Shown here: in pieces, positions 37,859-42,578 of the stretch | Numbering within the stretch: the first letter of the stretch is position 1 | How the letters are laid out: each line of letters begins with the position of its first letter | DNA from: Streptomyces minutiscleroticus | GTDB taxonomy: Bacteria; Actinomycetota; Actinomycetes; Streptomycetales; Streptomycetaceae | Direction: 5' to 3' | Length of the DNA: 64,000 bases | Assembly (NCBI RefSeq): GCF_014650875.1 | Contig: NZ_BMVU01000029.1 | Coordinates: 1 to 64,000, forward strand | Notes under the pieces: model-generated | What the model saw: the letters and a program-made list of their open reading frames with translations, nothing else | Databases searched by the model: none | What the model was told of the DNA's origin: nothing | Program-made: the position numbers and the translations under genes

Positions 37859-38515
37859 ATGATGATCACCGCCGACGCCCTGCTGTTCGACAACGACGGA
37901 ACGCTCGTCTCGTCCCTGGAGTCCGTGCGCCGCTGCTGGACGGCGTGGGCGCACGAGTACGGGATCACCGCCGAGGAGTTCGCGCGGGTCGAGCTGCACG
38001 GCCGGACGGCCGCCGCGATCGTCGCCGACCTGGTGCCCGCCGAGCGCGTGCCGAAGGCCGTGGCGCGCATCGAGGAGCTGGAGGTCGAGGACGCCGGGCG
38101 CGCCGGGGGCGGCGTACGGCCGCTGCCCGGCACCGCCGAGCTGCTGCGCTCGCTGCCCGCCGACCGCTGGGCCGTCGTCACCTCGGCCACCCGCCGGCTG
38201 GCCGGGGCCCGGCTCGCCGTCGCGGGCGTGCGGCCCGGGACGCTGATAGCCGCCGACGACGTCACGCGCGGCAAGCCCGACCCCGAGCCCTTCCTCCTGG
38301 CCGCCCGCGCGCTGGGCGTGGACCCGGCCCGCTGCGTCGTCTTCGAGGACGCGCCCGCGGGCCTGCGGGCCGGCCGCGCCGCCGGCATGGCCACGGTGGC
38401 GTTGACCACAACCCACACCGCCGCCGAGCTGGCGGCCGACGTGGTCGTGCGGGACCTGTCCGCCGTGTCCGCACAGGTCACGCAGGACGGGGTGCGGATC
38501 ACCGTCGAGGGGTGA
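37859..38515 (+). CDS. HAD-family hydrolase (subfamily IA)
   Basis: 218 residues. HAD motif I DALLFDNDGTLVSS (nucleophile and acid Asp), motif II VVTSATRR, motif III GKPDPEPFLLAARALGV and motif IV VFEDAPAGLRAGRAAG are complete. It is a phosphatase of the beta-phosphoglucomutase/phosphoglycolate/sugar-phosphatase type; substrate unknown. No Shine-Dalgarno sequence; TAGGGT (37846-37851) lies 7 nt before the first ATG, suggesting a leaderless mRNA. Confidence 0.92.
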   Translation: MMITADALLFDNDGTLVSSLESVRRCWTAWAHEYGITAEEFARVELHGRTAAAIVADLVPAERVPKAVARIEELEVEDAGRAGGGVRPLPGTAELLRSLPADRWAVVTSATRRLAGARLAVAGVRPGTLIAADDVTRGKPDPEPFLLAARALGVDPARCVVFEDAPAGLRAGRAAGMATVALTTTHTAAELAADVVVRDLSAVSAQVTQDGVRITVEG

Positions 38516-38527
38516 GCCGTCCGTGCG

Positions 38528-38546
38528 GGTGTCCGGAATACGGACA
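38528..38546. promoter_or_regulatory. 7-bp dyad between HAD gene and met leader
   Basis: GTGTCCG (38528-38534) and CGGACAC (38540-38546) are perfect complements around GAATA. It starts 13 nt after the HAD stop codon and about 29 nt before the likely -10 of the leader peptide. It could be a small terminator or a repressor site for metN. Confidence 0.4.
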
Positions 38547-38588
38547 CCTATGAGGGCTTCCGGGGGTGCGTCTGCTTTACTTGCAGCC

Positions 38589-38675
38589 ATGACCACGACG
38601 AGCAGCCGCATCCCTGCGACCGAGGCGACCATGACGCCCGGTGCTCGTTGTACGTGTCGAATGTGCGGCTTCTAG
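38589..38675 (+). CDS. Cys-rich leader peptide of metNIQ
   Basis: 28 codons, ATG at 38589 to TAG at 38673-38675. The peptide begins MTTTSSRIPATEATMTPGAR and ends with three closely spaced cysteines, CTCRMCGF. It has no Shine-Dalgarno sequence; TTTACT (38575-38580) is 8 nt upstream. Small Cys-rich leader ORFs in actinobacteria are known to sense cysteine supply by ribosome stalling and to control downstream sulfur genes. Its place 231 nt before metN points to cysteine-dependent control of methionine uptake. Too short for ordinary gene callers. Confidence 0.75.
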   Translation: MTTTSSRIPATEATMTPGARCTCRMCGF

Positions 38676-38905
38676 AGGGCCCCCGCACCACCCGAGCCTC
38701 GCGCCCCGAAGCGAGCCCGCCCGCGTCCGCCCGTACGGCGTCCGTACCGGACCGGGCACCCCACCGCCGCACCGGCGTGGGGGAATCCGCCGCACACGTT
38801 CTCCCCGGTTCCACCGCCACCGCGAGAACCGTGCCGCGTCCCGACCGCATGCACCCGTGCCGGGCGGACACCCACGCCCCGCACTCGACAGTGACGGAAA
38901 CCCCA
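38676..38905 (+). promoter_or_regulatory. metN leader region after the Cys peptide
   Basis: 230 nt with GC-rich stretches capable of several alternative pairings (for example the TCGCGCCCCGAAGCGAG stem near 38700). I do not see a SAM riboswitch consensus. It probably carries the attenuator or ribosome-site sequestering structure governed by the leader peptide. Details need RNA folding. Confidence 0.4.
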
Positions 38906-39940
38906 GTGATCACGACATCGGGCCTGACCAAGGTCTACCGTTCGCGCGGCCGTGAGATCACCGCCCTCGACGGCGTCGACCTGCACGTCCGCGAAGGCGA
39001 GGTGTACGGCGTCATCGGCCAGTCCGGCGCCGGCAAGTCCTCGCTCATCCGCTGCGTCAACCTGCTGGAGCGGCCCACCTCCGGCACCGTGACCGTCGAC
39101 GGGCAGGACCTGACGGCCCTCGCCGGGCGCGGTCCGCGCGCCGGCCGGGAGCTGCGCGCCGCCCGCAGCCGCATCGGCATGGTCTTCCAGCACTTCAACC
39201 TGCTGTCCTCGCGCACCGTCCAGGACAACGTCGAGCTGCCCCTCGAAATCCTCGGCATGTCGGGGAAGGAACGTTCCCGCAAGGCGCTCGAACTGCTCGA
39301 CCTCGTCGGCCTCTCCGACAAGGCGAAGGCCTACCCCGCCCAGCTCTCCGGCGGCCAGAAGCAGCGGGTCGGCATCGCCCGCGCGCTGGCCGGCGACCCC
39401 AAGGTGCTGCTGTCCGACGAGGCGACCAGCGCCCTCGACCCGCAGACCACCCGCTCGATCCTGCAGCTGCTGCGCGACCTCAACCGCCGGCTCGGCCTGA
39501 CCGTGCTCCTCATCACGCACGAGATGGACGTCGTCAAGACCGTCTGCGACTCCGCCGCCCTGATGGAGCGCGGGCGGATCGCCGAGTCCGGCACCGTCGC
39601 CGAGCTGCTGGCCACGCCCGGCTCGCGGCTGGCGTCCGCGCTGTTCCCGGTGAGCGGCGAGGCCTCCGGCGAGGACCGCACCGTCGTCGACGTCACCTTC
39701 CACGGCGACGCCGCGACCCGGCCCGTCGTCTCGGAGCTGGCGCGCACGTACAACATCGACATCTCGATCCTCGGCGCCGCGATGGACACCGTCGGCGGCC
39801 GGCAGGTCGGCCGGATGCGCATCGAGCTGCCCGGCCGCTACGAGGACAACGTGGTGCCGATCGGCTTCCTGCGCGAGCAGGGCCTGCAGATCGACGTTCC
39901 GGGGCAGGAGCCCGCGCTGGTGAAGGAAGGTGCCGAGTGA
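38906..39940 (+). CDS. metN: methionine ABC transporter ATP-binding protein
   Basis: 344 residues. Walker A GQSGAGKSSLIRC, ABC signature LSGGQKQRV, Walker B VLLSDEATSALDP, switch His in LLITHEMD. A C-terminal NIL/ACT-like domain (residues ~262-340, RPVVSELARTYNIDISILGA) binds methionine and inhibits transport in trans. The GTG at 38906 gives MITTSGLTKVY; another GTG at 38891 would add five residues. Neither has a strong Shine-Dalgarno sequence, consistent with control by the leader. metI overlaps by 4 nt. Confidence 0.93.
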   Translation: MITTSGLTKVYRSRGREITALDGVDLHVREGEVYGVIGQSGAGKSSLIRCVNLLERPTSGTVTVDGQDLTALAGRGPRAGRELRAARSRIGMVFQHFNLLSSRTVQDNVELPLEILGMSGKERSRKALELLDLVGLSDKAKAYPAQLSGGQKQRVGIARALAGDPKVLLSDEATSALDPQTTRSILQLLRDLNRRLGLTVLLITHEMDVVKTVCDSAALMERGRIAESGTVAELLATPGSRLASALFPVSGEASGEDRTVVDVTFHGDAATRPVVSELARTYNIDISILGAAMDTVGGRQVGRMRIELPGRYEDNVVPIGFLREQGLQIDVPGQEPALVKEGAE

Positions 39941-40716
39941 CCTGGTCGGAGATGCAGCCCCTGCTGTCGCAGGCGAGCTGGGACACGCTCTACATGGTGG
40001 GCTGGTCCACGCTGATCGCGATCGTCGGCGGCCTGCCGCTCGGCGTGCTGCTGGTCCTGACCGACCGCGGCGGACTGCTGCAGAACGTCGTGGCCAACAA
40101 GGTCATCGGACAGGTCGTGAACATCGCCCGCTCGATGCCGTTCATCATCCTGATGGTCGCGCTGATGGGCTTCACCCGCTCCGTCACGGGCACCACCATC
40201 GGCCGCGAGGCCGCCATCGTGCCGCTGGCCGTGGGCGCCATCCCGTTCTTCGCGCGCCTGGTCGAGACGGCCGTGCGCGAGGTGGACGGCGGGCTCGTCG
40301 AGGCCGTGCAGGCGATGGGCGGCAACACCTGGACGGTCGTCCGCAAGGTCCTCGTGCCCGAGTCCCTGCCGTCCCTGATCTCCAGCACCACCACGACGAT
40401 CGTCGCCCTCATCGGCTACTCGGCGATGGCCGGCACGGTCGGCGCCGGCGGCCTCGGCGACATCGCCATCCGCTACGGCTACCAGCGCTTCGAGACCGAG
40501 CTGATGTGGGTGACGGTGGCCGTCCTGGCCGTGGTCATCTCCGTGATCCAGTTCGCCGGCGACTACGCCGCCCGTGCGCTGCACCGGCGCGGCGGCCGCT
40601 CCGGCGCCGCTCCGCGCCTCAGGCTGCTGAAGGACGGCAGGACGGGAGCCCCGGCCGCCGGGACGGCGGACGGCGCCTCCGGCACGGCCGCGGCCGAGGT
40701 GCGCAAGGCCGCCTGA
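39937..40716 (+). CDS. metI: methionine ABC transporter permease
   Basis: 259 residues with about five membrane helices and the permease EAA-type loop (AVQAMGGNTWTVVRKVLVPE). N-terminal QASWDTLYMVGWSTLIAIVG and GYSAMAGTVGAGGLGDIAIR are typical of MetI. The GTG overlaps the metN stop (GTGA). The C-terminal 45 residues are a charged Gly/Ala-rich tail not usual in the family. Confidence 0.94.
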   Translation: MTWSEMQPLLSQASWDTLYMVGWSTLIAIVGGLPLGVLLVLTDRGGLLQNVVANKVIGQVVNIARSMPFIILMVALMGFTRSVTGTTIGREAAIVPLAVGAIPFFARLVETAVREVDGGLVEAVQAMGGNTWTVVRKVLVPESLPSLISSTTTTIVALIGYSAMAGTVGAGGLGDIAIRYGYQRFETELMWVTVAVLAVVISVIQFAGDYAARALHRRGGRSGAAPRLRLLKDGRTGAPAAGTADGASGTAAAEVRKAA

Positions 40717-40879: not shown

Positions 40880-41713
40880 GTGCGTAAGACCGCCAAGATC
40901 ACCACCGCTGCCCTCGCCGCCGGCGCCCTCACCCTGGGGCTCACCGCCTGCGGCTCCGAGGAGGACTCCGGCTCCGGCTCCGGCGCGAGCGGCCCGCTCG
41001 TCGTCGCGGCCAGCCCCGTCCCGCACGCCGAGATCCTGAACTACGTCAAGGACAACCTGGCCAAGGACGCGGGCCTGGACCTGGAGGTCAAGGAGTTCAC
41101 CGACTACGTCACGCCGAACACGGCGACCGAGGACGGGTCCGTGGACGCCAACTACTTCCAGAACCAGCCCTACCTCGACGACTTCAACAAGAAGAACGGC
41201 ACCCACATCGTGCCGGTCGTCACGGTGCACCTGGAGCCGCTCGGCCTGTACTCCAGCAAGGTGGACAAGGCGGACGACCTCAAGAGCGGCGCCACCGTCG
41301 CCGTCCCGAACGACACCGTCAACGAGGGCCGCGCGCTCAAGCTGCTCGACGCCAACGGGATCATCACGCTCAAGGACGGCGCGGGCAACGACGCGACCCC
41401 GAACGACATCGCCGAGAACCCCAGGAAGCTGAAGTTCAAGGAGCTGGAGGCGGCGCAGACCCCGCGCTCCCTCGACGACGTCGACGCCGCGGTGATCAAC
41501 GGCAACTACGCCATCGAGTCCGACCTCAAGCCCTCCGAGGACGCCCTGGTCCTGGAGTCGGCCAAGGACAACCCGTACGGCAACTTCCTCGCGGTCAAGG
41601 ACGGCGGCGAGGACGACCCGCGGGTGAAGAAGCTCGCCGAGCTCCTCACCTCCGACGAGGTCAGGAAGTTCATCGAGGACAAGTACGCCGGCTCCGTCCT
41701 CCCGTCCTTCTGA
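40880..41713 (+). CDS. metQ: MetQ/NlpA-type methionine-binding lipoprotein (copy 1)
   Basis: 277 residues. Lipoprotein signal MRKTAKITTAALAAGALTLG with lipobox LTAC (Cys24). The NlpA fold shows VVAASPVPHAEILNYVKDNL, LEVKEFTDYVTPNTATEDGS and VDANYFQNQPYLDDFNKKNG. It delivers methionine to MetNI on the outer face of the membrane. The GTG start follows AGGAAAGG. A paralogue follows 31 nt downstream. Confidence 0.95.
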   Translation: MRKTAKITTAALAAGALTLGLTACGSEEDSGSGSGASGPLVVAASPVPHAEILNYVKDNLAKDAGLDLEVKEFTDYVTPNTATEDGSVDANYFQNQPYLDDFNKKNGTHIVPVVTVHLEPLGLYSSKVDKADDLKSGATVAVPNDTVNEGRALKLLDANGIITLKDGAGNDATPNDIAENPRKLKFKELEAAQTPRSLDDVDAAVINGNYAIESDLKPSEDALVLESAKDNPYGNFLAVKDGGEDDPRVKKLAELLTSDEVRKFIEDKYAGSVLPSF

Positions 41714-41744: not shown

Positions 41745-42578
41745 ATGCGCAAGACCGTCCTGCCCGCGGCGGCCGGCCTCCTGGCCCTCGGCCTCGCCCT
41801 GACCGCCTGCGGCTCGGACACGGACTCCGCCGGCGGTGACGGCGCCGACGACACCCTCGTCGTCGGCGCCACCCCCGTCCCGGCCGGCGAGGTCCTGACG
41901 TACATCAAGGACGACCTGGCCGCGGACGCGGGCCTGAAGCTGGAGATCAAGGAGTTCACGGACTACGTCCTGCCGAACACCGCGCTCCAGGAGGGCTCGC
42001 TCGACGCGAACCTGTACCAGCACGAGCCCTACCTGAAGGACTTCAACGAGTCCAAGGGCACCGACCTGGTCGCGGTCGAGCCCGTCTACCTGCCGCCCCT
42101 GGGCGTCTACTCCAAGAAGGTCGAGGACATCGCGGAGCTCGCCGACGGAGCCACCGTCGCCGTGCCCAACGACACCACCAACGAGGGCCGCGCCCTCGAC
42201 CTCCTGGCCGCCGAGGGCGTCATCACGCTCAAGGACGGCGCCGGCGCGGACGCGTCCCCCGAGGACGTCGCCGAGAACCCCAGGAACCTGAAGTTCAAGG
42301 AGCTGGAGCCGGCCCAGCTGCCGCGCTCGCTGGACGACGTCGACGCCGCCGTCATCAACAACAACTACGCCCTGGACGCGGACCTCAGCCCCGCACAGGA
42401 CGCCATCGCGCTGGAGTCCGCGAAGGACAACCCGTACTCCAACGTCCTCGCGGTCAAGCGCGGCGACGAGGACGATCCGCGGGTAGGGAAGCTCGCGAAG
42501 CTCCTCGCCTCCGACGAGGTCAGGAAGTTCATCGAGGACAAGTACGAGGGCTCGGTCCTGCCGGCCGTCACCGGCTGA
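41745..42578 (+). CDS. MetQ/NlpA-type binding lipoprotein (copy 2)
   Basis: 277 residues, the same length as copy 1 and clearly its tandem paralogue: shared stretches include IKEFTDYVLPNTALQEGSLD, AVPNDT-NEGRALxLL and LLASDEVRKFIEDKYEGSVL. Lipobox LTAC at Cys22. GGAGG precedes the ATG. Differences concentrate in ligand-pocket regions, so it may bind another ligand (for example D-methionine, methionine sulfoxide or a dipeptide); this is inference. Last gene of metNIQQ. Confidence 0.93.
   Translation: MRKTVLPAAAGLLALGLALTACGSDTDSAGGDGADDTLVVGATPVPAGEVLTYIKDDLAADAGLKLEIKEFTDYVLPNTALQEGSLDANLYQHEPYLKDFNESKGTDLVAVEPVYLPPLGVYSKKVEDIAELADGATVAVPNDTTNEGRALDLLAAEGVITLKDGAGADASPEDVAENPRNLKFKELEPAQLPRSLDDVDAAVINNNYALDADLSPAQDAIALESAKDNPYSNVLAVKRGDEDDPRVGKLAKLLASDEVRKFIEDKYEGSVLPAVTG

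Follow-up and report, generated by a model that had tools for sequence, protein, structure and literature searches.

Among described systems, the closest was 'metL' (SLIV_29928), which lies before metNIQ in Streptomyces lividans TK24, was reported leaderless from RNA-seq, and was taken by its discoverers for a methionine leader (Droste et al. 2021, PMC8079986); the available parts of that paper named methionines and threonines as the leader codons, and called termination unclear with several hairpins downstream. Leaders with Cys codons near the stop were also described elsewhere: (i) the mycobacterial polycysteine leaderless ORFs (Ms5788A and relatives; Canestrari et al. 2020; Shell et al. 2015), likewise leaderless short ORFs located before a sulfur gene, and (ii) the candidate cys leaders of Mycobacterium, Propionibacterium, and Bifidobacterium (Seliverstov et al. 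2005, PMC1262725), which likewise had no hairpin terminator and for which Rho was suggested. The available part of PMC1262725 reported no conserved RNA structure upstream of methionine operons. A search of the open-access literature, with subscription papers mostly outside it, found one paper on the metN leader (PMC8079986) and none on its spread, the RNA within the ORF, or a cysteine reading.

Leader ORF, metNIQQ operon, and upstream region

The window (the whole 64,000-nt stretch analysed, from contig NZ_BMVU01000029.1 of Streptomyces minutiscleroticus) contained a 28-codon leader ORF MTTTSSRIPATEATMTPGARCTCRMCGF (38589–38675, + strand; stop TAG at 38673–38675), the ortholog of metL SLIV_29928, in the intergenic stretch between a HAD-type gene (37859–38515) and metN. 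Downstream on the same strand were metN (38906–39940; GTG start at 38906; ABC ATPase with NIL domain, Pfam ABC_tran plus NIL), the permease gene metI (39937–40716; Pfam BPD_transp_1), and two tandem metQ-type lipoprotein genes of one operon (40880–41713 and 41745–42578; Pfam Lipoprotein_9 in both). An earlier sequence-only reading of this DNA had described a 28-codon ORF ending in CTCRMCGF, with three Cys in six residues and 230 nt from its stop to the metN start; the ORF and the distance were both confirmed here, as was the weak look of the metN ribosome site (GACGGA, 38893–38898). An in-frame GTG was present upstream of the leader at 38523, and the conserved start was the ATG. As a chance control, 380 ATG ORFs of 20–40 codons were taken from mononucleotide shuffles of the intergenic region, and none of them placed three Cys within six residues close to the end. 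At the other end of the window, positions 600–807 gave a full-length match of 180 bits to Rfam Scr1601 ('Streptomyces RNA 1601').

A candidate promoter with an extended −10, TGC-TTTACT (38573–38581, + strand), was located upstream of the leader, with a spacing that fitted a transcript beginning at the leader ATG; the −10-like TTTACT itself (38576–38581) had been pointed out before, at 8 nt from the ATG, and it was present, with the spacing corrected to seven bases. TTTACT was found within 20 nt 5′ of the leader ATG in 159 of 166 Streptomyces loci and 34 of 39 further loci, and the leaderless look of the ORF agreed with the RNA-seq leaderless start of the S. lividans ortholog (PMC8079986).

Further upstream, the palindrome TGTCCGGAATACGGACA (38530–38546), a candidate operator of GTCC-N7-GGAC form with its centre ~50 bp before the leader ATG, was the only exact match to TGTCCRNNATNNGGACA in the 9.5-Mb genome. 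GTCC-N7-GGAC occurred no more than 85 nt 5′ of the leader in 157/166 Streptomyces loci, and a looser form in 23/39 further loci. Several published NdgR sites share this form (ChIP motif list, e.g., GTCCGCCATGCGGAC), and NdgR may bind the palindrome; metN was absent from the published NdgR regulon table (34 genes). Nine one-mismatch copies of the palindrome were examined, eight of them inside mechanical open frames, which says little because the DNA is GC-rich; one of these eight (L185:1501–1517) was located 40 bp before the leader of cysI, compared to 42 bp between the window palindrome and its own leader. That cysI leader, MPGTGIALVSRRHVDLGRMSSAICPAG (L185:1558–1641), preceded a sulfite reductase gene, scored above the cut-off of NF042934, and held only one Cys. 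In several loci of genus g14 (upstream regions L245–L258), the stretch from the first palindrome to the −10 held another, imperfect palindrome, about TCCTGATAACTGGGAC. A SenR DNA site (CCGTGCCGCGTTCCG) was predicted 31 nt before metN of S. coelicolor (PMC4991794), a position inside the transcribed spacer that corresponds to hairpin P6 of the window (38857–38884, see below).

Conservation, range, and translation of the leader

The sequence comparison was applied to 170 loci (30 plus 80 named plus 60 more fetched by position), covering 90 of 121 genus genomes plus the named loci: a MetI search matched 121/121 genus genomes at E ≤0.001 (a few partial or via paralogs), and the best 80 of 475 loci were taken from the named relatives. 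A strict leader pattern was found in 162/170 loci, and the eight off-pattern loci were composed of three without upstream sequence (L041, L102, and L157), four with a variant Cys-rich leader (L049, L134, L135, and L156), and L146, whose leader was recovered from another locus of that genome, L222. The leader was present in 167/167 Streptomyces loci with enough upstream sequence, a number that does not stand for 167 independent species, since the named and unnamed collections overlap; these loci held 99 distinct 28-codon ORF sequences. The leader consensus was MTTTSxRxxATEATMTPGARCMCRMCAF, and the window leader, located upstream of metNIQ, was of the MxTTS...ATEA...PGARC..RMC type, like S. lividans metL, whose printed peptide MSTTSDRTPATEATTTPGARCMCRRMCAF was identical to that of L030 (PMC8079986). 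The alignment proposed with the sequence-only reading, asking whether the ORF or its Cys codons would be lost among Streptomyces, was run; both were kept, and the claim was not refuted.

At the level of the family, with a cut-off of E 0.05, a covariance model gave matches in 114 of 150 genomes and 16 of 17 genera, where the weaker rows may be chance save L256 to L259, which were opened, and in 84/150 genomes and 12/17 genera at E ≤3e-6; genus g3 had one weak match among the matches listed. Across 296 genomes of the class, searched with strict filters, the strong matches were those of the genus plus one other-family genome, G483 (E 2e-6, model positions 68–126 only), beside 30 weak rows. All 40 fetched hits, nearly all from other genera (L244 was from the genus itself), contained a leader ORF and a same-strand MetN-coding sequence downstream, the metN N-terminus being placed in 38 of them. 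The leader was carried by all 167 adequate Streptomyces loci and these 40/40 further hits, and therefore it is not a chance ORF. In genus g14, the N-terminal half of the leader was replaced (MTATTTCTPTGT... and similar), with ATG, RMC, and stop kept, so that the element is defined by gene context and leader end, while the predicted three-way junction (see below) is a feature of the Streptomyces-like part of the family.

In 203 of 204 loci, the ATG and the CG(A/C)ATG motif were separated by a multiple of three, with nine different distances spanning 66 to 96; of the 99 distinct 28-codon ORFs, 62 ended in TAG and 37 in TGA. As the ATG-to-RMC distances varied by whole codons, the metN leader is, judged by comparison of loci, translated, and the leader noticed before metN proved real and conserved as well.

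RNA fold within the ORF, spacer, and output route

The MFE fold and pair counts placed a three-way junction in the ORF (38595–38651, + strand), composed of stems P1 (38595–38603 with 38643–38651), P2 (38607–38610 with 38615–38618), and P3 (38619–38622 and 38624–38627 with 38635–38642). Across the 99 distinct ORFs, codons 10–12 (GCG ACC GAG) were identical in all, codon 13 (GCG) in 98, and codons 4–5 and 17–19 in 95 to 98, third positions included, while amino acids varied at codons 6, 8, 9, 14, 15, and 22, all but the last falling in the junction strand and loops of the MFE fold. The base conservation in codons 2–21, third positions included, would be accounted for by folding of these bases into the junction; the codon conservation pattern apparently reflects selection that acts more on the RNA than on the peptide, and given this nucleotide constraint, part of it may serve RNA structure, not sensing. 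The MFE fold had a strength of z −1.72, with 7/200 shuffles folding equally well; RNAalifold agreed on the junction core and instead paired the outer P1 strand (ATG region) with codons 22–24. At gathering score, no Rfam 15 family overlapped the leader element, and at permissive settings, only one 18.5-bit match was found there, on the other strand.

Covariation was followed in alignment A2, which omitted genus g14 and other loci with a non-aligning N-terminal half and kept 35 of the 53 Streptomyces rows in alignment A1. In A2, 94.5% of cells were paired, and there were 26 double-changed cells compared to 7.8 in shuffles (0/500 shuffles reached this), of which the main double change, pair G14-C56 to A14-U56 in 14/50 distinct rows, may be one old event common to related genera. 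Slid controls of A2 gave 7 pairs changed on both sides vs. 6 for the junction, and a covariation score of 0.089 vs. 0.110. Codon 5 was AAC instead of AGC, and codon 19 GTT/GTC instead of GCT, in several other genera (Ser5/Ala19 to Asn5/Val19), with the base pair kept; rows with codon 19 GTC had lost the adjoining A13-U57 pair. Covariation from A1 alone was rejected: 7 double-changed pairs were counted vs. up to 9 in slid controls, giving no excess over all controls; A2 gave the stronger signal of the two alignments.

After the leader stop came GAGGGCC and hairpin P5 (38698–38702 with 38711–38715, loop GCCCCGAA; whole region 38677–38715, + strand), together with a candidate pseudoknot (38677–38680 with 38703–38706). 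Most of the further loci shared GAGGGCC and P5, as did L260, a hit from another family, but several genus g7 loci lacked them. The spacer (38676–38905, + strand; 155 to 359 nt across 204 loci) was C-rich and G-poor (C 48%, G 29%), being a candidate Rho loading region: its C minus G of 0.19 was reached by 0.06% of 230-nt windows (64 kb, both strands, spacer included), and a value of >0.08 was found in spacers of 203/204 loci. Among 78 named loci, the C-richness of the spacer ranked at a median of top 1.8% within its own locus (41/78 within 2%, worst 22%), the comparison windows being mostly coding sequence rather than other 5′ regions. The terminator hairpin plus U run of a classical transcription attenuator was searched for in 38500–39000, and none was found; a C-rich, G-poor spacer without such a terminator suits Rho.

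Hairpin P6 (38857–38884, + strand), located before the metN ribosome site, was drawn by eye with compensated variants; RNAalifold on this region gave no structure, and its mean folding z was only −0.84 (184 distinct segments). The segment CCGCACTCGACA (38879–38890, + strand) was complementary to leader positions 38655–38660 plus 38663–38668, making up a possible long-range pairing P7 with a predicted probability of 0.38 in the window and of >0.5 in 29/40 loci (all of the 28-codon class). The Streptomyces leader end UGUCGA-AU-GUGCGC was correspondingly complementary to GCGCACUCGACA directly 5′ of the metN ribosome site. The mean duplex energy peak was at the metN-proximal target (80 of 126 distinct loci tested; −17.4 vs. 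mean −8.8, sd 2.9), with no such peak in genera g14 and g7, where the best partner of the target was elsewhere in the leader; the leader–target pairs ranked at ≤5% of shuffled targets for 77% of 122 distinct Streptomyces pairs and 24% of 38 from the further loci. As for covariation of P7, 85% of its 12 positions paired in 51 distinct Streptomyces pairs vs. 84.5% with permuted targets (185/1000 at or above observed), and permutation over 15 clades gave 0.17; among 24 Streptomyces leaders without TGTCGA, 20 kept an uncompensated TCGACA target. P7 was not accepted as a proven switch on these grounds: complementarity of the leader end to the bases at the metN ribosome site, the kind of pairing looked for by analogy with the mycobacterial polycysteine attenuators, was strong in Streptomyces, but there was no covariation, targets were uncompensated, and complementarity was weak elsewhere.

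Whole-transcript folds beat all six shuffles in 10/36 Streptomyces loci (~5 expected) and 7/38 further loci. With modelled ribosomes on codons 21–26, access of the metN ribosome site changed from 0.47 to 0.49 (up in 10–12 and down in 4–6 of 40 loci), and the stretch −20 to +3 of metN opened from 0.41 to 0.46–0.50. P7 had no covariation and modelled ribosomes barely changed site access; of the two output routes that fit, Rho-dependent termination in the untranslated spacer is the leading candidate, at somewhat less than an even chance, and translational attenuation via Cys-codon pairing in Streptomyces is a rather less probable one.

Signal, proposed mechanism, and relation to known systems

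The candidate sensor codons 21–26 were TGT ACG TGT CGA ATG TGC (C T C R M C; 38649–38666, + strand). RMC/RMR was located near the leader end in 114/117 distinct Streptomyces leaders and 35/35 further ones; the last ten residues had at least two Cys in 114/117 (97%) and 32/35 (91%), respectively, vs. at least two Met in 71% and 69%. They averaged 2.8 Cys and 1.7 Met, and the five neighbouring genes had 4.4 Cys codons per 1000. Residue retention among the 99 distinct ORFs was 91 for C21, 95 for C23, 96 for M25, and 76 for C26 (replaced by Arg in 21); codon 22 was Met in 67 and Thr in the window, and Met15 was present in 48, both Met15 and Met22 being variable (L, T, R). CGA served as the Arg codon of RMC in 96/99, compared to 0/83 Arg codons in the five neighbouring genes. 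No contiguous Cys run was present, the commonest form being C-M-C-R-M-C and that of the window C-T-C-R-M-C; some g14 leaders had two or three adjacent Cys. With E allowed up to 10, four leaders (window, L030, L240, and L249) had no match to the NCBIfam Cys-leader models NF042933, NF042934, and NF042936. In the same genome, the leader MKRQADLTKRRAVDLCRVAAMLCRPF of a cysA-type rhodanese gene (L270:1237–1317; Ms5788A family, leaderless-looking, with seven bases between TACGAT and ATG) scored above the cut-offs of NF042933 and NF042934.

Control of metN by cysteine, as proposed from the letters, was thus borne out in part: the Cys codons near the stop were conserved, but the leader did not single out cysteine over methionine, as Met25 was kept as well as any Cys, the ortholog was published as a methionine leader, and no NCBI Cys-leader model matched. 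The signal has about an even chance of being cysteine, while joint sensing of both amino acids would be a lesser possibility and methionine alone a slightly smaller one still. In S. coelicolor, SCO1557-1559 rose with cysteine genes under oxidative stress (metQ 2.3-, metI 3.5-, and metN 5.2-fold; PMC4991794), which fits cysteine sensing and is no proof of it; the authors of that paper credited the induction of metNIQ to the HbpS-SenS-SenR two-component system.

The metNIQQ leader is probably a leaderless, ribosome-controlled attenuator sensing cysteine and/or methionine. Building on what was observed here, a conserved ORF with its frame kept, RNA structure inside it, and the composition of the spacer, its sensing, direction of response, and output would run as follows. 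The transcript would begin at the leader ATG, and the ribosome would read the 28 codons, reaching CxCRMC just 5′ of the stop. With scarce charged Cys-tRNA (possibly Met-tRNA), it would halt at CxCRMC and melt P1–P3, covering the Cys codons plus bases beyond the stop, and metNIQ would be expressed; with both amino acids ample, it would finish and leave, and the junction, P5, and leader-end pairings would re-form, turning expression off. The output would be either Rho-dependent termination in the spacer or, in Streptomyces, Cys-codon pairing before the metN ribosome site. A wider reading, put forward only tentatively, is a family-wide attenuator class in which the junction is built into the leader coding sequence, base pairs dictate most amino acids, and the last codons sense Cys and Met jointly, so that a ribosome at CGA-AUG-UGY would switch the junction, the post-stop hairpin, and, in Streptomyces, a 12-bp contact ~220 nt away, to bases 5′ of the metN ribosome site, thereby tying cysteine and methionine supply together within a single RNA.

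Three other explanations were weighed against the cysteine and/or methionine attenuator. Sensing of Met-tRNA at AUG codons 15, 22, and 25, with cysteine incidental, would suit an operon whose product is a methionine importer as well as the published reading of S. lividans metL (PMC8079986), and it would draw on the retention of Met25 and, in two-thirds of distinct ORFs, Met22, and on insertions that tended to bring Met and Cys jointly (e.g., CMCRLMCRMCAF); variation at Met15 and Met22, Thr22 in the window, and the higher share of leaders with paired Cys than with paired Met near the end make it unlikely. A riboswitch-like structured RNA sensing a metabolite or protein directly, with the ORF as a passenger, is somewhat less likely again: the bases conserved in codons 2–21 while amino acids vary at loop codons, the three-way junction with compensatory changes, and the conserved loop of the hairpin 3′ of the stop would all be expected of it, but the frame and stop survived indels, the leader ATG coincided with the published transcription start in S. 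lividans (PMC8079986), the N-terminal part was replaced in g14 with ATG, RMC, and stop staying, and the Rfam search had given no family at gathering score.

Least likely of all is regulation mainly at the promoter, whether through an NdgR-like protein bound to the palindrome or through another DNA-binding protein, with the leader as a by-product of a leaderless start. The palindrome, conserved in nearly all Streptomyces loci, unique as an exact match, of the published NdgR-site form, and nearly copied before the cysI leader, speaks for it, as do the SenR site predicted before metN and the tie of metNIQ induction to the SenR system (PMC4991794). It would leave the ORF, the RNA fold, and the RMC end unexplained, however, and it is at odds with the absence of metN from the NdgR regulon table and with 16/39 further loci that lacked even the looser palindrome.

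If the cysteine and/or methionine attenuator is true, it would explain how methionine uptake in Streptomyces is kept in line with sulfur supply, which feeds redox defence and specialised metabolism, and it would provide an unusual case of a peptide moulded by the fold of the RNA that encodes it. With no Rfam family and no NCBIfam model matched, standard annotation is likely to miss the element; its simple layout lends itself to testing by reporter fusions.

In tnaC-type Rho-dependent attenuation, a leader ORF is followed by an untranslated, possibly Rho-prone spacer, as in the metN leader. Unlike tnaC, the metN leader displayed no sign of nascent-peptide arrest, and several of its N-terminal amino acids varied freely. 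Compared to the mycobacterial polycysteine ORFs, as far as the available parts of their descriptions go, it differed in having Cys spaced by Met/Arg (commonest form) instead of a contiguous Cys run at the C-terminus, no NCBI model match, RNA structured within the ORF, and methionine uptake as its target; the leaders of PMC1262725, in the part available, were located before cys or cbs operons, unlike the metN leader. In the available parts of the S. lividans paper (PMC8079986), neither conservation nor a junction within the ORF was described; the leader itself was thus already known from S. lividans, while how widely it occurs and the RNA fold within its coding sequence seem to be new.
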